Part shown: piece by piece, positions 9,040 through 43,349 of the stretch
How the letters are laid out: the number at the start of each line of letters is the position of its first letter
Position numbering within the stretch: position 1 is the first letter of the stretch
NCBI GenBank assembly: GCA_029261965.1
Contig: JAJDAH010000377.1
Coordinates: 1-43,475 of the forward strand
From: Polyangiaceae bacterium
Lineage (GTDB): Bacteria; Myxococcota_A; Polyangia; Polyangiales; Polyangiaceae
Length of the DNA stretch: 43,475 bases
Reading direction: 5' to 3'
The notes under the pieces: generated by a model
What the model saw: the letters and a program-made list of their open reading frames with translations, nothing else
Databases searched by the model: none
What the model was told of the DNA's origin: nothing
Position numbers and translations under genes: made by a program

Positions 9040-9390
9040 GCGCGGGGTGAAGACAGAATCGCTGACGAGCTTCAGCTCGGACGACCCGCACACAATACCG
9101 TACTTCGCATTCCGAAGTTCCTAGCTGAAGTTCGCCGTGGATCCTCGGCGCCCCCCACGTCGGGTTTTCCATGACCGTCGGGAGAGCCAAACCCAGAGGA
9201 CGCGATCTGCCGGACGTAGCTTCGGGCGCTTCGACGTTCGCTGGTGGATCGCGAGCTGCTGGTGCAGGGCGACGATCTCGAGTGCCTGATCGCCCCCAGA
9301 TTTGAACAGAGATCGGATCGCCGTCGGAACAGAGACGAACAGGTCGAGCATCGCGGGCACCTCTCGGTGCTCGGCGAAAATGGTCAAGCA
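9040..9390 (-). pseudogene. Relic of an integrase-type IS transposase
   Basis: On the minus strand, 9387-9180 reads EIVALHQQLAIHQRTSKRPK then LRPADRVLWVWLSR, close to the N-terminal region of DDE integrase-type transposases common in high-GC genomes. After a frame change near 9185, ENPTWGAPRIHGELQLG continues the family's HTH segment, which normally reads NPxWGxxRIxGEL. The catalytic DDE core is missing and the sequence degrades before 9040. No terminal inverted repeats were found. It lies between the barrel-like protein gene and the sulfotransferase gene. Bases 8937-9040 and 9391-9424 hold nothing recognisable. Confidence 0.65.
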
Positions 9391-9424
9391 TTTCCAGCCA
9401 GGTCACCTTTTGGCGAAGGACAGG

Positions 9425-10204
9425 TCAGGCAGACACCCAAGCCGAGTCACTCTCGTATCCGAGGCTGATGAGCAGGCCGCCAGCGATCTCGTCGAAACGC
9501 TCGCGTTCTGCGAGGGTCCACGCTGGCCAGCGCGGAGAGAGTTTGTCGTTCGACGCTTCAGCAGTGAACGACGAGTTGATTGGCGCTTTCGAGCGGATGA
9601 GCTCGACCGACTTCGGCTCGAACGTTTCGCCGAGGAAACTGTAGAGTTTTTTCAGCGCCGCTTCGGTGTTCGCGACGACGTCCTCGTAGCGTAACGTGTG
9701 GGTTCGGTCGGTCCCCGCCGTTCGGGCAAACTCGAGGGCTGCGTTCGTGTAGTCCCGCCAAGTGCAGCAGGCGTCGTCGTGTTCGACGGGATTCACGAAA
9801 TGGCGGAGCGAGTGCACGACCTGTCGACCGTCACGAATCAGGACGAGAAAAATCGCGTTCGGAAACAAGAGCGCGATGTCGCCGAGATGTTTTGCATATC
9901 CCGGCGTTTGCTCGACCCATCTGAGCCCGCCGGAACGGTCGGAGTAGAGCGAGTTGATGCCGTGTCCGACGTGTTTCACGAACTCCGCTTGAGATACGTC
10001 GAGCCCCGACAGCCAGTGAAACTGTCCTCGGCTCGAGCCGAGGGCATGCGTTTGCCGTAGCGAGCTCACCAGGGAAACCAGGTAGTCGCTCTCGGGGCCA
10101 CCCCAGAGCCCAGGGTGCTGCCGCAACGCCCACTGCAACATGCTCGTCCCGGATCGGGGCGCACCCACCACGAAAATCGGGCTATCGCAGACGTCGATCT
10201 TCAC
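9425..10204 (-). CDS. Sulfotransferase family protein
   Basis: This 259-residue protein starts MKIDVCDSPIFVVGAPRSGT. The GAPRSGTSML loop at about residues 14-23 is the PAPS 5'-phosphosulfate-binding motif of the Sulfotransf_3 group. A second conserved region, FLVLIRDGRQVVHSLRHF (about 120-137), carries the 3'-phosphate-binding arginine and serine. No signal peptide or membrane segment is present, so it is probably cytoplasmic. It would transfer sulfate to a hydroxyl or amine of an unknown acceptor. The next gene upstream on the same strand, 100 bases away, is a methyltransferase-kinase fusion. The two may tailor one small molecule or glycan; this is inference from proximity. Confidence 0.88.
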   Translation of the reverse strand: MKIDVCDSPIFVVGAPRSGTSMLQWALRQHPGLWGGPESDYLVSLVSSLRQTHALGSSRGQFHWLSGLDVSQAEFVKHVGHGINSLYSDRSGGLRWVEQTPGYAKHLGDIALLFPNAIFLVLIRDGRQVVHSLRHFVNPVEHDDACCTWRDYTNAALEFARTAGTDRTHTLRYEDVVANTEAALKKLYSFLGETFEPKSVELIRSKAPINSSFTAEASNDKLSPRWPAWTLAERERFDEIAGGLLISLGYESDSAWVSA

Positions 10205-10303
10205 GCTTTGACGTCACCCATTCGGTGCGCGCGGGTCGAAACGCCGCCAACGGCAACGCAGATGGCCTTTGCGAATTCCCTTCGCGACGTTTGAGACGCG
10301 ACA

Positions 10304-11929
10304 CTAGTCACCAGCTCTGTCTGCACGCGGAAGCGCCTGTCCATACTCCATGAGCGTTTTCAGCCCGCGAACGTGTCGCGCCACCAGCTCTTCGAGGTTG
10401 GGGTCCGGGTGCTCGGCCAGCCGAGCGGAGGTGGCTGCCAGCCACCCCAAGACCCAGTGCACGCCGAAAAGGACGTCATCCTGGCTTGGCGGTCCCGCTC
10501 CGGGGATCTCTTTCTCGGCGAGATCCAGATAGCGCTGCACGTCGTCTTTGCTCGCACCGAGGGCAGCCAAGATGAAGAGAACGTCGGTGTAGGGCGATCC
10601 CACGAGAAAGTTGTCGAGATCGACGACGCGCGTCGAGCCATCGACCTCGAGCACGTTGGAGCTGTTGAGATCACCGTGGCAGATCCTCTGGTGCTTTTTC
10701 GGGTCGAGTGTCCTCGCCACGTCGATCCAGTGGTCGATTCGCTCTCGGTCGACGGAGAGCACACTTCCGCAACGGCTTGCCAGCGCTCTCATTTGTTCGG
10801 GGTTCAGAGCGCGAGACATCGAGGTCTCTCCGAGTCGCTTCGCGAGGTCCTCGGGAACCCGGGCGAGCTGCTTGGAGACCTCCAGCGCGATGTGAATTCG
10901 CGTTTCCAACGAGAGTCGAGGTGGTGGCGGCGCCGTGACCGGTGGATCGTCGAGCCATTCGAACACCATGATTCGTTCGCCCTCGGCGCCCTGGTGGACG
11001 TATTCACCGTTTCTTTCGAGAGGGAGCGCCAACGGACCGTCGGTTGCGCCGTGAAGCGCCGCGAACAGCTCGCCTAGCAGCTTCGGATCCACATCGTTCA
11101 GACTACTTTCCGGGGCGGGGCGTTTGGCCACGTAGCAGCGCTCCCGTCCTTCGAGAAAAACGCAGTTTCCCCGACCCCAGGGGAGTGGCATCTCCAGGCC
11201 GGTCAGATCCGGGAACGACGAGAGTAACGCGCCGCTGGTCTTTTTTCCGGTCGCGGTGACGAGCGCGCGGACCGACGGGCCGTCGGTGCCGGCGTAGGAC
11301 ATGAACTGACGGATCTCGACGCTCCGAAAATATCGGCAGAGCTCCTTGAGAATCAGCGAGGAATCGTAGCTCTCGGCGGTCAGCTTGGTTTGAGCTCGAA
11401 TCGAAGGCTCGTCCGCGTTCCAAGGAAACTCGATGAAGAGCCGCTCCCGCGTCAGTTGTGCGAGCTTCGCGATCGCTTGCGGAATCGGAGTTCCCTGCGA
11501 GACGACCCAATGAATGACCTCGAAGAAGAACACGACGTCGGCTCGATCGAGCTCGGGATCGATGTCCGAAAACCCTTTTCGCTCAGCCGTGACGGGTAAC
11601 CCGTTTTGCGCGAGCGACGCGCGGAGCTCCTCGATGAACGCTGGCGTCACGTCGTAGGACCGCACGCTAGCCGCGCCGAGTTTCGCAGCGATAAACGAGA
11701 GGTGTCCGGTGTGACAACCGATATCCAGCACGTGCCTGCCCGAGAGCTCCTGCGCGGTGAATCCCGTCTCGCGCATTCTCCGTGCCGTCGATTCGTTGAG
11801 CGGAGCCAGGGTCTTCGGATCGAAGTGCGAATACGAGCACTTCGGCCGGTCGCGCTTGGACCCTTTCTCGGGCGTCACTGCTCGCTCGGTCACGGTGTTC
11901 TTGTCAGAGGTCATGCGATGGGGCGACAT
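10304..11929 (-). CDS. Methyltransferase-phosphotransferase (APH-like kinase) fusion
   Basis: The product is about 541 residues from the ATG at 11929; an ATG at 11914 is equally possible, since neither has a clear ribosome site. Residues about 45-200 form a class I SAM-dependent methyltransferase with motif I LDIGCHTGHLSFIAAKLGA and a downstream acidic SYDV. Residues about 245-530 resemble aminoglycoside/choline-kinase-like phosphotransferases. They include the catalytic loop ICHGDLNSSNVL and the metal-binding VVDLDNFLVGSPY. The kinase part keeps the catalytic Asp and Asn and the later Asp. With the neighbouring sulfotransferase, three transfer chemistries (methyl, phosphate, sulfate) are encoded side by side. 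The acceptor cannot be inferred. It could be one enzyme acting twice or a kinase domain reused for binding. Confidence 0.83.
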   Translation of the reverse strand: MSPHRMTSDKNTVTERAVTPEKGSKRDRPKCSYSHFDPKTLAPLNESTARRMRETGFTAQELSGRHVLDIGCHTGHLSFIAAKLGAASVRSYDVTPAFIEELRASLAQNGLPVTAERKGFSDIDPELDRADVVFFFEVIHWVVSQGTPIPQAIAKLAQLTRERLFIEFPWNADEPSIRAQTKLTAESYDSSLILKELCRYFRSVEIRQFMSYAGTDGPSVRALVTATGKKTSGALLSSFPDLTGLEMPLPWGRGNCVFLEGRERCYVAKRPAPESSLNDVDPKLLGELFAALHGATDGPLALPLERNGEYVHQGAEGERIMVFEWLDDPPVTAPPPPRLSLETRIHIALEVSKQLARVPEDLAKRLGETSMSRALNPEQMRALASRCGSVLSVDRERIDHWIDVARTLDPKKHQRICHGDLNSSNVLEVDGSTRVVDLDNFLVGSPYTDVLFILAALGASKDDVQRYLDLAEKEIPGAGPPSQDDVLFGVHWVLGWLAATSARLAEHPDPNLEELVARHVRGLKTLMEYGQALPRADRAGD

Positions 11930-12060
11930 CGTAGCCGCTACCCAAGAAAGATGGGGAGGGCCGCAGCCTACGACATTTTCGATGCGCCCTAGTGCCCGCT
12001 TATCGAAGGCAGGAAACTTGGTCCTCGGGGCTCCGGCGCACAAGTCTGTCATTACACAAG

Positions 12061-13746
12061 ATGGCGTCACGCTGGGCTTGGGCAGCAGTCATTCTCGTGG
12101 GGGGCATCGGTGCTACCGCTGCCGTGCTCGCGTCTACGGGTGTGCGGATCCCGATGCTCGGCGGACCGAGCGAAGCGGCGCCCTCCGCGGTCGAGGTAGT
12201 GACCGCGAGCGCCGAGCCCGACCCGGTCGCGGAGCCGCCCGCATCCGAGCCGAGCGCGACGACGAAAAAGACGGGCCCCGAGTCGCCGTGTCCTCCGGAA
12301 ATGGCGCTCATCCAGCAGAAGTTCTGCGTCGACAAGTGGGAAGCCAGCCTCGTCGACGAGGATGGGGAGCCGCATTCGCCCTACCACCGCGTGCGTCTGA
12401 AAAAGGTCAAAGCGGTGAGTCGCCCAGGCGTCGTGCCGCAGGCGTACATCAATCATGACCAAGCGAACGCGGCTTGCAAGCGCTCTGGCAAGCGCCTCTG
12501 CTCGAGCACGCAATGGACTCAGGCCTGCGGTGGTTCGGGACGCTATCCGCGCGCCCTGCCTTACGGCGACAAGCTGAAGAAGAAAGCGTGCAACATCAAC
12601 TCGCCGATGCATCCGACGGCGAAGCTCTACAACGAGAACCGCCACGACTCGAAGTCGTTGAACGATCCCAAGCTCAACCAGGTGCCGGGCACGGTGGCCA
12701 AGACCGGGGAGTTCAGCGAATGTGTCACGCCCGAGGGCGTGGCCGACATGCACGGCAACCTGCTGGAATGGGCGCGTAGCGACAAATCGCGACCCTACCT
12801 GCTCGGGGGCTACTACCTCGATGGCATCAAGCACGGCAACGGCTGCTACTACGTGACCGACGGCCACGACTCGAACTATCACGACTTCACTACGGGGTTT
12901 CGATGCTGCCTCTCGCCGGAACCGGCGAAGCTCGCGGCTTACGTCGCCCAGGTGACGCCCCCGCCCGAGCCGAAAAAGCGAGAGCCGCGGCCCGACGGTC
13001 AGATCCCGCGCGATCCCGAAGGCATGCGGGGGTTCTTCGACCCGCGAGGGAAATTGCCCGACGTGCAGCCGCTGCCGTATCAACCCGCCGGCGCCGCGTG
13101 CCCGGTCGACATGGTGCACGTCAAGGGGCTTCGCTGCTCGAAGCCAGTACAGCGCTGCCTCGAATGGCTTCCGCCCGAGCGTCGCCATCGAAAGAAGATT
13201 TCTTGCAAGGAGTTTGCGAAGCCCGTCGAATGCAAGGGAAGCCGCGCAGCGATGGACTATTGCATCGACCGTTACGAGTTCACGGCCGACGGGTACGACT
13301 ACCCGCTGACCTCGGTGAACTGGCGCGAAGCCGAGAATCTATGCGCCAAGATGGACAAGCAGCTCTGTCGCGAACGCGAATGGGAATTCGCGTGTGAAGG
13401 CCCCGAAGCTCTACCCTATCCTTACGGCTACGTTCGTGACGGCAAGAAATGCAATCACGACCTTCCCGAGATCGAGCTCGTCACCTCCCCCGACAACTTC
13501 ATCGACCATCGCGTCAAGGCTGACGCGCTTCCGGGCTGCGTGAGCCCTTTCGGGGTGTACAACATGGTTGGGAACGTCGACGAGTGGACGACCCGCGACG
13601 GCGGTGGCTCGCAGCGCGCGATCCTCCGGAGCGGCTGGTGGCTTCGGGGGCGAAACCGATGCCGTGCCGCCACCGCCAACCACGGCGAGAACTACGGCAG
13701 CATGCAGACCGGGTTTCGGTGCTGCAAACCGTCGCGCAAGAAGTGA
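12061..13746 (+). CDS. Membrane-anchored protein with two FGE-sulfatase (SUMF1-like) domains
   Basis: The ATG at 12061 gives 561 residues. One membrane segment (AWAAVILVGGIGATAAVLAS) follows the start, then an Ala/Pro/Glu/Ser-rich linker to about residue 75. Two formylglycine-generating-enzyme-like folds follow, near 78-290 and 415-558. Each has the conserved blocks FCVDKWEASL / YCIDRYEF, CKRSGKRLCSSTQW / CAKMDKQLCREREWEFAC, MHGNLLEWA / MVGNVDEWTT and a final GFRCC. The copper-binding cysteine pair of true FGE enzymes (a CxxxxC near the end) is not visible in either copy. These are therefore probably binding or structural modules, as in many SUMF1-like proteins, rather than sulfatase activators. 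The gene is divergent from the methyltransferase-kinase gene. Confidence 0.87.
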   Translation: MASRWAWAAVILVGGIGATAAVLASTGVRIPMLGGPSEAAPSAVEVVTASAEPDPVAEPPASEPSATTKKTGPESPCPPEMALIQQKFCVDKWEASLVDEDGEPHSPYHRVRLKKVKAVSRPGVVPQAYINHDQANAACKRSGKRLCSSTQWTQACGGSGRYPRALPYGDKLKKKACNINSPMHPTAKLYNENRHDSKSLNDPKLNQVPGTVAKTGEFSECVTPEGVADMHGNLLEWARSDKSRPYLLGGYYLDGIKHGNGCYYVTDGHDSNYHDFTTGFRCCLSPEPAKLAAYVAQVTPPPEPKKREPRPDGQIPRDPEGMRGFFDPRGKLPDVQPLPYQPAGAACPVDMVHVKGLRCSKPVQRCLEWLPPERRHRKKISCKEFAKPVECKGSRAAMDYCIDRYEFTADGYDYPLTSVNWREAENLCAKMDKQLCREREWEFACEGPEALPYPYGYVRDGKKCNHDLPEIELVTSPDNFIDHRVKADALPGCVSPFGVYNMVGNVDEWTTRDGGGSQRAILRSGWWLRGRNRCRAATANHGENYGSMQTGFRCCKPSRKK

Positions 13747-13765: not shown

Positions 13766-14299
13766 TCAGCTCGCGGTTGCACACTGCACACGGGCACACT
13801 CCGCGGGCTCGTCGGAGCCGTCGGTGCAGTCTTCTTCGAGGTCGCACCGGTAATCGGCGGGCACGGATTGTCCGTTGTCGCACGTGAACGACGTCGGACC
13901 GCCGCAGTCCCGCTCGTCCGAGCCGTCGGCGCAATCCTCGTCGCCGTCGCACAGGAACGCGTCGGAAACGCTTTGTCCGTCATCGCAACGGAAGTTCCTG
14001 CGTCGATCGAGGCATCCGAACAAACAGCTCTCGAGGGAAGACGGAGGTCCGTCGCCGCAGTAGGTCGTCTCGAGGGCGGCGCAGCTCGCGCGGGCGACGC
14101 AGGCAAACGCGCAGGCGTCGACCAGCGTGGGCCTAGCGGGACAGGTCAGCACGCCGTTGTCGATGAGCTTGCACTCGACCAGCTTCATTCGGCCGACGTC
14201 ACAGCTCGCGCCTGGGGTGCCATCATCCCCGCAACTGACCACGGCAAGCACCGCCAACGAGGCGGGCCCAACCAGTCGCTTGGTCAGCGAGTCGGTCAC
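13766..14299 (-). CDS. Lipoprotein with two LDL-receptor class A domains
   Basis: The GTG at 14299 gives 177 residues. The N-terminus has a hydrophobic stretch and lipobox-like LAVVSC, so the mature protein is probably lipid-anchored. Residues about 30-95 hold eight or more cysteines of an unknown Cys-rich region. Two LDL-receptor class A repeats follow: one with FRCDDGQSVSDAFLCDGDED then CADGSDERDC, the other with FTCDNGQSVPADYRC then EDCTDGSDE. Each has six cysteines and the acidic calcium-binding SDE cluster. Such repeats are frequent in animals and rarer in bacteria, with known cases in myxobacteria. The gene is convergent with the double FGE-fold gene, whose stop is 20 bases away. Confidence 0.87.
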   Translation of the reverse strand: MTDSLTKRLVGPASLAVLAVVSCGDDGTPGASCDVGRMKLVECKLIDNGVLTCPARPTLVDACAFACVARASCAALETTYCGDGPPSSLESCLFGCLDRRRNFRCDDGQSVSDAFLCDGDEDCADGSDERDCGGPTSFTCDNGQSVPADYRCDLEEDCTDGSDEPAECARVQCATAS

Positions 14300-15426: not shown

Positions 15427-16416
15427 TCAAGTTCCGAAGGGCAGCAGGGTGCCCTGCTTCTTCGGCGCGTCGTCTTCTTTGCTCTTGCTCGTTGCCAGTT
15501 TCAGCACCTGCCAGTAGCTCGTGGCGACTTCTGCTCGGTCGAGCACGCCGGCCTCACCGAGTAGGCGGTGCACCTTGGGGAGATTGTAGTGCGGCACGTA
15601 CATGTAGAGATGATGTTCGAGGTGATAGTTGACGTGATGCGGCGCGATCAAAAACCGTAGCCAGAACGGAGCGAGCGTCGTGCGCGTCTGACGGAGCTCG
15701 TCTTCGGTGTCTCCGACCACGGCGTGCTCGGCGATGCTGCGCAGGCGCATCACGAACGAGTACCCGGTCAGCGCGGGGAGCCACCACAACAGGAAAAAGG
15801 CTTCGGGGTGGCCCGCGGCGGTCAGGGCTCCGAGCATGACGCCGTTGGTGATCAGGAACCCCTTCTGGTTCTTGACGAAGGTCGCCGCTACCGTGTGGAG
15901 CGGCACGCCGCCGAGACCGTTGCCTTTGGGGCTGAGACCAGCGGAAAGGCGCGCGATCATCACGTAGCGCCGATAGCCGGTGCGACCGCTGAGATCGCGG
16001 AACACTTTGCGCCACATGCTTCGTTTCGTGATCGGAAACGGGGTGGCGAGACTCCGGTCCGGATCGGCGTCGGTCCACGTGTTCTTGTGATGTTGGACGT
16101 GGATCTGCCGGTAAACGTCCATGCTCAGCATCAGCGGGTACGCCGTCAGCCAGCGGCCCACGATGTCGTTGTACTTGCTGCTCTTGAGCAGCAGCCGGTG
16201 CGCCCCTTCGTGCATCAGAATCGCGATACCCAGGTGGCGGCCACTCACGACGAGCCAACCAACGGCGAAAGTCAGCACGCTCGGGCGCCAGCAATAGAGC
16301 GCCATCGACGCCGCGATCCAGCCCCAGCTCCAAGCGATGGCGGCGAGCCCACGCCAGCTCTGAACTCGACCGAGCTCCTTGAGTTTTTCTTTTTCGATGT
16401 ACTTTGCGGCGCTCAT
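15427..16416 (-). CDS. Membrane fatty acid desaturase
   Basis: The product is 329 residues with the three histidine clusters of the membrane-bound desaturase/hydroxylase superfamily: HEGAH (residues 69-73), HVQHH (106-110) and HHVNYHLEHH (260-269). Hydrophobic stretches before box 1 and between boxes 2 and 3 give about four membrane helices. The three clusters would bind a di-iron centre that inserts a double bond, or a hydroxyl, into an acyl chain. It probably sits in the cytoplasmic membrane. The ATG overlaps the upstream regulator stop (TAATG), so translation is coupled. Fatty acid desaturase is the best call; a carotenoid or sterol-type relative is less likely. Confidence 0.9.
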   Translation of the reverse strand: MSAAKYIEKEKLKELGRVQSWRGLAAIAWSWGWIAASMALYCWRPSVLTFAVGWLVVSGRHLGIAILMHEGAHRLLLKSSKYNDIVGRWLTAYPLMLSMDVYRQIHVQHHKNTWTDADPDRSLATPFPITKRSMWRKVFRDLSGRTGYRRYVMIARLSAGLSPKGNGLGGVPLHTVAATFVKNQKGFLITNGVMLGALTAAGHPEAFFLLWWLPALTGYSFVMRLRSIAEHAVVGDTEDELRQTRTTLAPFWLRFLIAPHHVNYHLEHHLYMYVPHYNLPKVHRLLGEAGVLDRAEVATSYWQVLKLATSKSKEDDAPKKQGTLLPFGT

Positions 16417-24936: not shown

Positions 24937-25866
24937 TCAGTAGCGCGGGACGGTGTCGTCGACCTCGGTCGACCAAGCGTCGATGCCGCCGACCAGGTTG
25001 TACACGTTCTTGAAACCGACCGAGAGAAAGTGCTCCGCCGCCGCCTGGCTGCGTCCGCCATGGTGGCAGTGGAAAATCAACGGGGTTTCCTTGTCGAGAC
25101 CCTCGATCCGCGTGGACGCGGCCTCGTCGAGGTGGCGGGCGCCTGTGATCTTGGCTTTTTCCCGCTCCTCGGGCGTTCGCACGTCGTAGAGTTCGAGTTC
25201 CTTGCCGGCGCTCAGCTTTTCTTGGAGCTCCGTGGCCATCATCTGACGGACTTTGGGCGGCTCGTTCGGATTGTCGATCTTGAACGCCGGCCCCTGCGGC
25301 GTCTTCACGAAGTCGATTTTGACGCCGTTGGCGCGCCTGGCGCTGGTGCGACTGAGCACGATGGTGAGGCCGTTGCTTTCCACGCGCATGTCGCTGGGGT
25401 TGCTCGGGCCGACGCTGAGGTCGTTGTTGAACTGGGCGTCGATTTCGAGGCGGATGAACTCGCTGTCTCCCTGAAGTGCCCCTTCGAGCGCGCCGGCAGC
25501 CGTGTCACTCAGCTCGATCTTCGGAGGCTCGATTTCGACGGGCTCAGCCCCGAGCTTCTTTTCGAGATCGCCGTTGGCAAACATTTCGGTGATGATGTCG
25601 CAGCCGCCGACGAATTCACCGTCGATGTAGAGCTGCGGCACCGTCGGCCACGACGAGTACTCCTTGATGCCCTGACGCACCGACGGATCCTCGAGCACGT
25701 TCACCGTCGTGTATTCCGAAATGAACTCCTCGAGCAGGCTGACCACCTTCGCAGAGAACCCGCACTGGGGCGCCATGCGCGTACCTTTCATGAACAGCAC
25801 GACCTTGTCGCTCTTGACCGTTTGTTCCAGTTGCTCTTTGAGGGCGGATTCCATGGGAGGATCCAT
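24937..25866 (-). CDS. Monothiol glutaredoxin / A-type carrier-like / rhodanese fusion
   Basis: I start at the ATG at 25866 (309 residues); a TTG at 25890 would put a palindrome inside the gene. Residues about 10-107 are a monothiol glutaredoxin with CGFS (Cys35) and TVPQLYIDGEFVGGCD. Residues about 117-207 resemble an A-type Fe-S carrier (IELSDTAAGALEGAL, GVKIDFVKTPQGPAFKIDNP) but lack all three usual cysteines. Residues about 210-309 are a rhodanese domain with DVRTPEEREKAKITGARH and the active-site loop CHHGGRS (Cys267). Grx domains of this type bind a shared 2Fe-2S cluster with glutathione. The whole points to iron-sulfur or sulfur transfer in the cytoplasm. A perfect inverted repeat lies directly upstream. 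Confidence 0.9.
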   Translation of the reverse strand: MDPPMESALKEQLEQTVKSDKVVLFMKGTRMAPQCGFSAKVVSLLEEFISEYTTVNVLEDPSVRQGIKEYSSWPTVPQLYIDGEFVGGCDIITEMFANGDLEKKLGAEPVEIEPPKIELSDTAAGALEGALQGDSEFIRLEIDAQFNNDLSVGPSNPSDMRVESNGLTIVLSRTSARRANGVKIDFVKTPQGPAFKIDNPNEPPKVRQMMATELQEKLSAGKELELYDVRTPEEREKAKITGARHLDEAASTRIEGLDKETPLIFHCHHGGRSQAAAEHFLSVGFKNVYNLVGGIDAWSTEVDDTVPRY

Positions 25867-25892
25867 GGTTGACGTAACGTAACCTGTCAACC
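25867..25892. promoter_or_regulatory. Inverted repeat GGTTGAC-N12-GTCAACC between divergent genes
   Basis: GGTTGAC (25867-25873) and GTCAACC (25886-25892) are perfect 7-bp inverted arms around a 12-base spacer. The spacer holds two GTAAC units. It abuts the fusion gene start at 25866 and lies 40 bases upstream of the divergent thioesterase start at 25932, so one protein could control both. The binding protein is unknown. Confidence 0.5.
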
Positions 25893-27525: not shown

Positions 27526-28461
27526 ATGGCTGGGCTCGACGCTGCCCTGGATGTTCTTCACCTGTTTGGCGATCCCTCGCGGGTGCGGCTGATGGCGCTC
27601 CTGTCGCGAGAAGAGCTGGCGGTGGCGGAGCTCGTGAGCATCACTGGGCTCGCGCAGTCGCGAGTATCGACGCACCTGGGCAAGCTCCGCGACGCCGGGA
27701 TCCTTCGTGACCGCCGGGTCGGAGCGTCGACCTTCTACACCGCGAGCGACGGCGTCATGCCCGAGCAGGCCCGCAAGCTCTGGTCGCTGCTGGAAAGCGA
27801 CGTCGTCGATCCCGTGCTCGAGGAAGACGGTCGACGCTGTGACGAGCTGTTGCACGCTCGCGATGGCGCGACCTCATGGCCCGACACGGTGGCGGGTCAA
27901 ATGGAGCGCCACTATTCGCCGGGGCGAACGTGGGAAGCGACCGCGCGGGGCCTGCTCGGTTTCGTGCGATTGGGCGACGTGCTCGACGTCGGATCCGGCG
28001 ACGGCGCGATTACGCAGCTCTTCGCGCCAAGAGCGAAGACGGTGACGTGCGTCGATCGAAGCGAGCGAATGATCTCCGCCGCAAAGAAACGACTCGACCA
28101 TTTTTCGCACGTGAAATATCGAGTGGGCGACATGCAGGAACTCCCATCCGATGACGGCGCGTTCGACGAGGTGATCATGCATCACGTGCTCACGTATTCC
28201 CCCGCGCCCGCCCGCGCCGTCGAAGAGGCCGCCCGCGTGCTGAGACCGGGAGGCCGACTGAGCTTGGTGACGCTCAAGGAACACGCCCATCGCGAGATCA
28301 CGGCGCAGTACAGCCACCTGCAGCCCGGCTTTTCGCTCGGCGCCCTCACTGGATGGATCGCAGGTGCCGCTCTCGACGTGGAGTTTTGTGAGGTGACGTC
28401 TCGAGAACGGCGCAAGCCGTACTTCGAGGTCATCACCGCTTTTGCAAGGAGATCCTCGTAA
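27526..28461 (+). CDS. ArsR-family regulator fused to a SAM-dependent methyltransferase (SahR-like)
   Basis: The 311-residue protein has a winged-helix DNA-binding domain near residues 5-85 ([20 protein letters not shown], then [20 protein letters not shown]). The metal-sensing cysteines of arsenic sensors are not evident in the recognition region. A class I methyltransferase domain occupies about 125-310, with motif [21 protein letters not shown] and an acidic end of strand 2 (CVDRS). This architecture is known from ArsR-type regulators of the methionine/SAH cycle (SahR group) in several proteobacterial lineages. It is joined to metH by a 2-base gap. It probably senses S-adenosylhomocysteine or SAM and regulates this operon; that is inference. 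Confidence 0.87.
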
Positions 28462-28463
28462 TC

Positions 28464-32144
<3,681 letters not shown>

Positions 32145-41746: not shown

Positions 41747-43204
41747 TCAGGGCCCCACGTGTTCGGCCACCCCGTTGATGAAGTCGCCGACGAACTGTGA
41801 CAGCGGCTTCGGATTCACCGAGGCGTCGTAGAACCGTGGTCGCCAAACGTGTTGGTGAAAAGCGATGTTGGCTCCGCCGATGAAGTAGGTGGAGAAGCGC
41901 CCTGTGCCACCGAAGCGATTTCGCAACGTGTTGAGTCCCGCCTCGTAAGGTGCCGCCTCCATGTAGACGTTGGGCGTGATTTGCCCGACGGTGATGAAGA
42001 TGGGGTCGGCAGTTTCGTAGGTCGAGCAGTTCGAGAGTCCACTCGAAAAGAAGAGCCGAATGACTTCGTCGTGCATGCTCGAGATGAGGGCGACCCGGCT
42101 GTTCGGGTGTTTGGCGAGAAGAAAATCCGCGAGATTGAGGATCCCGCCACCGTCGGCGTTGAAACAGTCGACGCAGTCCGGCGGGAGCGTCGCGTCGAGC
42201 CCCCACTGCTCGCGCCAACGTTTCTGCATGCAAGTCGGCATGAACTCGTCCTCGAAGGGCGGTCCGGAATCCATCAGCACGTCCATTCGCACGTCCCCGA
42301 AGGCATCCTGAATCATGCTGGCGTTCAGCGCGGCACCGAAGGAGCCGGCGCTCGTGCCGTTGAGCAGCACGTAGTCGATGCTGTCCGCGAAGGTGGGCAC
42401 GAGGTGACCGATGAAGGTGCGCATGTTGAGGTGGCCGACGAACTGCTGCGGAGTTGCCAGCCCGGGCACGGTCACGTTCGACCGCGTCCCACCGTGCACG
42501 TCACCCGTGCAATACGGCACGTAGACGATGTTCCAGTCTTTGACTGGGTTTTGGGGATTGTCGACGTCGAAGATCCCACTCGGGACGCCGAGGTCGAACA
42601 CGCCGGGTTGTTGCCGAAGGGGCGCGACGCCGAGCGCAGAGCCGAGCACGGTCTGACCGTCGCCCGAGATCACCTGATTGACGTTCGCCGGGTTGTAGTT
42701 GCAGAAACCGGGGCTCGAGCACGCGCCGCCGCCCTCCATGTAGATCATGAGGTTCTTGGAGTCGGCGTAGCGAACGTAGAAACCCGTGGGCGACGCGTCT
42801 CGGCACAACGCGCCTTCGATTTCGTACCAAACCCATCCCAGCGGCGGAGGTGGGTCGAGCGGCGTTCCGCCGGTCGGATCGAGCGGCGCGAGCATGGGTG
42901 GCGCAAGATTGATGAATTCGGGCAGGCTGTTTGGAGGGCCGTTCGGAGCGGGACCTTCGGCGCCACCCCCGCCCGCTCCACCCGCCGCCGTGGCGCCGCC
43001 AGTCCCCCCGCCAGTCCCGCCCGCTGCGGCGCCACCGGCGCCGGGCGCACCGCCAGTACTCGGGAGCATCGAACCTCCGGTGCCCATGCCGCCCGCCCCG
43101 AAGAAGTTTTCACGAGGCCCGGTCGCGCCGTTTCCCGATCCGCAGTGGATCGATCCGACCGCGACGAGAGCGAGCAAGAGTGTCGAGACGAGCCTGTACC
43201 CCAT
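41747..43204 (-). CDS. Pectinacetylesterase-like lipoprotein
   Basis: The ATG at 43204 gives 485 residues. A lipoprotein signal ends GSIHCGSG, and a Gly/Ala linker spans about residues 35-85. The remainder is a pectinacetylesterase (PAE)/Notum-type alpha/beta hydrolase. It has KNLMIYMEGGGACSSPGFCN, the nucleophile in NGTSAGSFG (Ser near residue 285), the acid in SSMHDEV and the histidine in IGGANIAFHQHVW. Other PAE landmarks are VPYCTGDVHGGT and MDSGPPF. It probably removes acyl groups from a polysaccharide or a protein outside the cell membrane. The open frame to 43288 adds no credible signal. Confidence 0.9.
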   Translation of the reverse strand: MGYRLVSTLLLALVAVGSIHCGSGNGATGPRENFFGAGGMGTGGSMLPSTGGAPGAGGAAAGGTGGGTGGATAAGGAGGGGAEGPAPNGPPNSLPEFINLAPPMLAPLDPTGGTPLDPPPPLGWVWYEIEGALCRDASPTGFYVRYADSKNLMIYMEGGGACSSPGFCNYNPANVNQVISGDGQTVLGSALGVAPLRQQPGVFDLGVPSGIFDVDNPQNPVKDWNIVYVPYCTGDVHGGTRSNVTVPGLATPQQFVGHLNMRTFIGHLVPTFADSIDYVLLNGTSAGSFGAALNASMIQDAFGDVRMDVLMDSGPPFEDEFMPTCMQKRWREQWGLDATLPPDCVDCFNADGGGILNLADFLLAKHPNSRVALISSMHDEVIRLFFSSGLSNCSTYETADPIFITVGQITPNVYMEAAPYEAGLNTLRNRFGGTGRFSTYFIGGANIAFHQHVWRPRFYDASVNPKPLSQFVGDFINGVAEHVGP

Positions 43205-43349
43205 AGTCTTTTGTGCAACGCAAGAACCACACCACCGCAATTTTCCGCGGCGCCCGCGTCGTTGCGCGTGCTTGCGCTGTCGGCGCACCGATCAGCTGTT
43301 CGCGCGACGAACACCCGAGCATTCACGCCGTGCAGCAGCGAGGGCGTGC

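Follow-up and report, generated by a model that had tools for sequence, protein, structure and literature searches.

A single protein encoded in the 43,475-nucleotide stretch of Polyangiaceae DNA analysed here (the window) joins a class I methyltransferase (MT) to an APH-type kinase and probably (about 0.6), by analogy with known terminators, acts as a two-step methyl-phosphate capping enzyme for a surface glycan. We infer the activities, the acceptor and the order of the steps from the domains and motifs, the gene pair, the split homologues found in ABC-exported glycan clusters, and a fold search in which the terminator WbdD ranked first, and the role of the adjacent sulfotransferase is derived in the same way. 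Capping at the chain end determines how long bacterial surface glycans become and governs their export; MT-kinase terminators have been proven in only a few systems. If the reading is correct, the fusion and its relatives, which occur in Myxococcota and in a MAG titled Planctomycetota, would represent a third architecture, and methyl-phosphate caps would have been assembled on several occasions with different kinases. The sulfotransferase partner additionally raises the question of doubly charged caps versus a pseudo-enzyme that reads the cap.

The first-pass annotation had proposed that the MT and kinase domains are fused and that a sulfotransferase with an intact PAPS loop follows on the same strand, and both proposals held (Table 1). 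The fusion matched the Pfam families Methyltransf_25 (E 2e-10) and then APH (E 9.9e-12), both above the curated cut-offs, and the catalytic motifs are intact in both domains, with VLDIGCHTGHLSF and CHGDLNSSNVL...VVDLDN present; in the numbering of the 541-aa protein, the catalytic Asp of HGDL is D420 and the Asp of the DIGC motif is D69. The open reading frame spans positions 10304–12070, but the ATG at 11929 is a better start than the GTG at 12070 because the longer version would overrun the divergent plus-strand gene. That neighbor (11992–13746) has a hydrophobic N terminus and two stretches matching the FGE-sulfatase family (PF03781, E 1.9e-25). A frameshift artefact as the source of the fusion was judged unlikely, since the junction lies in one continuous reading frame in which the kinase homology resumes, and no start codon for a separate kinase was found in the other two frames around it; the linker contains an A6 run. 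Foreign codon usage was also considered and discarded, as the GC3 of the fusion and the sulfotransferase gene (0.73–0.77) falls inside the range of their neighbors. No terminator-like site was detected on the minus strand inside the gap between the two genes, and it is plausible that they form one operon.

Table 1 Positions in the window of the fusion gene, its domains and the adjoining sulfotransferase gene
Feature	Position	Strand	Details
MT-APH kinase fusion	10304..11929	-	541 aa, ATG at 11929; 588 aa if upstream GTG at 12070
MT domain	11250..11860	-	N-terminal family-specific motif CSYSHFDPKTLAPLN, motif I VLDIGCHTG, FEVIHW/EFPW motifs
APH-type kinase domain	10304..11230	-	WGRGN loop, VAK lysine, HGDLNSSN catalytic loop, DLDN metal site
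Intergenic gap, fusion/sulfotransferase	10205..10303	-	99 bp
Sulfotransfer_3 protein	9425..10204	-	259 aa; 99 bp downstream of fusion; Pfam E 2e-29; GAPRSGTS PAPS loop intact; RDGRQVVHS motif

Two characterized terminators are the closest points of comparison. WbdD, which has an ePK-like kinase, caps the Escherichia coli O9a O-antigen with methyl phosphate (PMC3482155), and Klebsiella O7 ORF6 combines an MT with an AmiN-like kinase and is a proven methyl-phosphate terminator of which the D441A mutant is inactive (PMC11231755). Like WbdD (E. coli O9a/K. pneumoniae O3), the fusion has an N-terminal class I MT directly joined to a kinase in one chain, and by analogy only it would phosphorylate first and then methylate the phosphate. 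Unlike the 708-aa WbdD, whose C-terminal coiled coil recruits the polymerase, the 541-aa fusion has no coiled coil, its kinase fold occupying the last 308 residues (1–302 aligned to 4ocu), and its kinase, judged by Pfam and a low-confidence model, appears to be APH-type rather than ePK-like. Further, WbdD is encoded within an O-antigen cluster, whereas the fusion has no local cluster, the pairs of its relatives lie in ABC-exported glycan clusters, and the fusion adjoins a sulfotransferase. The N-terminal half of K. pneumoniae O7 ORF6 has the same succession of an MT and an APH-like (AmiN-like) kinase with a catalytic Asp, but ORF6 also carries a CBM-like domain, a coiled coil and GT2 modules. 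No CBM-like domain was found in the fusion by Pfam or in the predicted structure, and 541 aa leaves no room for one. Compared by description, the ORF6 kinase is not recognisable by sequence, unlike the window kinase (Pfam APH, E 1e-11). The fusion may thus work like the methyl-phosphate terminators without being a WbdD, given the missing coiled coil and the apparently different kinase type. The first-pass annotation had left the need for both domains unexplained, for which the known two-step logic, in which a phosphate is added and then itself methylated, provides a rationale; it had also called the combination of three chemistries unusual, but the MT-kinase pair has these two precedents, from both of which the fusion differs in its sulfotransferase partner.

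In the AlphaFold2 model of the fusion, the mean pLDDT was 58 (about 80 for the MT and 50 for the kinase), and a kinase-only model reached 59. When the whole fusion was compared with the PDB by Foldseek, all five WbdD entries ranked first (E 1e-10 to 1e-7) with alignments of 465–564 columns spanning both domains, and the methylphosphate capping enzyme MePCE came sixth. The kinase half of this predicted match is weak because of the low model confidence. Kinase-only matches were throughout APH, choline, homoserine and N-acetylhexosamine kinases, AmiN among them, with 4ocu as the best (Z 11.0, rmsd 4.6, 275 aligned), and WbdD was absent both from this list and from the results of sequence searches against the PDB. 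The fold comparison, which had been set beforehand as the test of the kinase assignment, thus agreed with the Pfam profile in placing this part among the APH/choline/sugar kinases, albeit through a low-confidence model, and the window kinase appears to resemble the AmiN-like kinase of the O7 terminator more than the ePK-like kinase of WbdD.

For the MT alone, the VIA-align Z-scores tied with those of many unrelated O-, N- and C-methyltransferases; MePCE was among the best matches, but neither it nor WbdD stood out by Z. Since the single-domain lists do not favor WbdD, the resemblance derives from the two-domain Foldseek result together with the gene context. The tied scores also suit a different explanation, namely that the MT and the kinase modify different positions of one glycan by sugar O-methylation and sugar phosphorylation and make no methyl-phosphate product, and O-methyl sugars and phosphorylated sugars are indeed both common in bacterial glycans. 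We consider this distinctly unlikely, as MePCE, a phosphate methylator, is among the best MT matches and the fused or overlapping layout parallels that of the two characterized methyl-phosphate terminators.

The MT-kinase family is very rare, and three genomes are known to contain it. The kinase was present in 2 of the 379 genomes from the phylum of the window, and the MT in 1 of 318 genomes from its class and 1 of 392 from the phylum of the second relative. An alignment- and pattern-based scan of 84,980 species, limited in its sensitivity, returned two loci; scanning genome contigs with single-sequence queries gave no match, and no relatives were found in the viral contigs, plasmids and phages scanned. 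Most matches from the first search for relatives were dismissed as unrelated methyltransferases that aligned only around motif I. The two relatives are the Deltaproteobacteria MAG OFTM73 (Myxococcota; G140, loci L031, L035 and L046) and the MAG titled Planctomycetota (G592, locus L045), with identities to the window protein of 45–47% for the MT and 27–31% for the kinase, and the HGDL..SN catalytic loop and D.DN metal site are retained in every member found. The search for two-domain homologues therefore recovered the pairing in two further genomes but not the fusion itself, as MT and kinase are separate, adjacent and overlapping genes in both. Such an arrangement in two distant genomes links the MT and the kinase with or without fusion, and because the MT stop codon overlaps the kinase start in L031 (ATGCAAGATGA), the fusion in the window is easily derived from a split pair of this kind.

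Both relatives carry the pair in polysaccharide clusters with GT4/GT2 enzymes, sugar-nucleotide genes and Wzm/Wzt-type ABC exporters. The order in L045 is a GT4-GT2 fusion, a sulfotransferase-like gene, the MT, the kinase, more glycosyltransferases, another MT, an exporter permease (assigned by eye, as Pfam gave no match) and a Wzt-type ATPase. A single stretch in G140 encodes a GT4, a DegT, the MT, the kinase and a GT2, and about 20 kb away on the same contig lie a Wzt-type ATPase and a GT4-GT2 fusion that shares 53% identity with its L045 counterpart and is directly followed by a sulfotransferase-like gene. G140 also contains another copy of the kinase gene, which lacks a neighboring MT and is surrounded by genes for an ABC-2 permease, two GT4 enzymes, a UDP-GlcNAc 2-epimerase, another sulfotransferase and a sugar-phosphate transferase. 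A Pfam scan of the open reading frames found no glycan genes within the 43-kb window, but elsewhere in the same genome there are a locus with an ABC-2 permease, a Wzt-like ATPase and a GT4, and a cluster of several glycosyltransferases, one of which shares 42–43% identity with the GT2 part of the GT4-GT2 fusion in L045. ABC-exported glycans are plausible in this phylum, since the O-antigen of Myxococcus xanthus is made by an ABC-transporter pathway (PMC7484181).

The isolation of the window pair from glycan genes, and the fact that APH-type kinases act mostly on small molecules, would also fit the tailoring of a secondary metabolite or lipid head group, in which a diffusible product is phosphorylated, methylated and also decorated by the sulfotransferase. 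One precedent for such a product is the methyl-phosphate ester guanitoxin, for which the kinase and the methyltransferase are separate enzymes. The kinase has a weak similarity to GntI (E 3e-4), and a nearby gene (15427–16416, minus strand) encodes a member of the fatty-acid desaturase family that scores 117 bits to GntB (cut-off 380). Every GntI and GntB score is, however, far under the curated cut-offs, neither PKS, NRPS nor other guanitoxin-type genes were found among the scanned open reading frames of the window, and both relatives are located in polysaccharide clusters. We therefore regard small-molecule tailoring as unlikely, and a guanitoxin-like reading, having been weighed, is retained as a weak rival only.

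In each of the three genomes, the MT-kinase pair comes with the sulfotransferase or a homologue of it, which directly adjoins the pair in the window and in L045 and in G140 lies on the same contig at a distance of 21 kb. The link suggested by the first-pass annotation is real in the genomes found, although a sample of three is too small to establish the trio as a rule. The idea that three chemistries act together is only half supported. While the window protein keeps both the PAPS 5′-loop and the 3′-phosphate motif, the loop reads GAPCSDAA in the L045 protein (9056–9847) and GSPCSDAS in that of G140 (L067 17130–17876). These two proteins are 56% identical, CSD replaces RSG in both, and the loop Arg and Gly are thus absent; they could be a conserved pseudo-enzyme or have a changed donor. 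Because the canonical loop is lost in both relatives, sulfate chemistry as a general feature of the conserved partner seems doubtful from the motifs.

The altered loops would also suit a bifunctional MT-kinase that merely sits beside an unrelated sulfotransferase and shares no pathway with it, as would the abundance of such genes, with about 12 Sulfotransfer_3 loci in the genome of the window. These include a paralogue on contig C475 (L048 9701–10555, minus strand) that is 53% identical to the window protein and also has GAPRSGTS. Its neighbors are radical SAM/SPASM, TPR, GMC oxidoreductase and DegT genes, and the contig ends there. Chance is nevertheless highly improbable as an explanation. 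In a tree built against the other sulfotransferases from the same genomes, the window protein, the C475 paralogue and the L045 and G140 partners form one group (support 84/89), so homologues from one subgroup accompany the pair in 3/3 genomes, and direct adjacency in two genomes by chance has an estimated probability well under 1 in 1000. A sulfotransferase is also paired with an ABC-exported glycan in the sulfated capsule clusters of Cobetia, for which the part of the description available to us mentions no MT-kinase terminator (PMC11766843).

In the capping mechanism that we favor, the APH-type kinase would phosphorylate a hydroxyl group on the terminal sugar of a surface polysaccharide or glycolipid, after which the MT would methylate that phosphate. 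The resulting methyl-phosphate cap would stop growth or mark the chain, as with WbdD and the N-terminal half of O7 ORF6. The adjacent sulfotransferase would most likely act on the same glycan, either by adding sulfate, in keeping with its intact PAPS loop, or, as the altered homologues hint, by binding to this glycan or to the cap. Cap recognition in O9a-type systems is the task of a C-terminal carbohydrate-binding domain on the exporter ATPase. The Wzt-like ATPases of the relatives are about 300 aa long and best match types without this domain, so the reading of the cap, if there is any, must differ from the O9a type, and we speculate that the sulfotransferase-like protein with the altered donor site is a candidate cap reader. 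A broader proposal, which we hold only tentatively and think rather doubtful, is that the APH-type kinase, the phosphate MT and the sulfotransferase-like protein constitute a conserved three-protein module that, unlike WbdD and O7 ORF6, would place methyl phosphate and sulfate on the same glycan end, with the sulfotransferase in some lineages serving as a non-catalytic cap reader in place of the missing carbohydrate-binding domain of the exporter ATPase.

Several other genes of the window were noted for their domain contents. A minus-strand gene at 13766–14299 encodes two LDL-receptor class A repeats (PF00057, E 2.6e-15), a domain known mostly from animals, and another at 24937–25890 encodes a 317-aa fusion of glutaredoxin, Fe-S biosynthesis and rhodanese domains. 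On the plus strand, an ArsR-type HTH-methyltransferase fusion (27526–28461) is directly followed by a B12-dependent methionine synthase (28464–32144), and a Pectinacetylesterase/Notum-type protein (PF03283, E 7e-19) is encoded at 41747–43288 on the minus strand.
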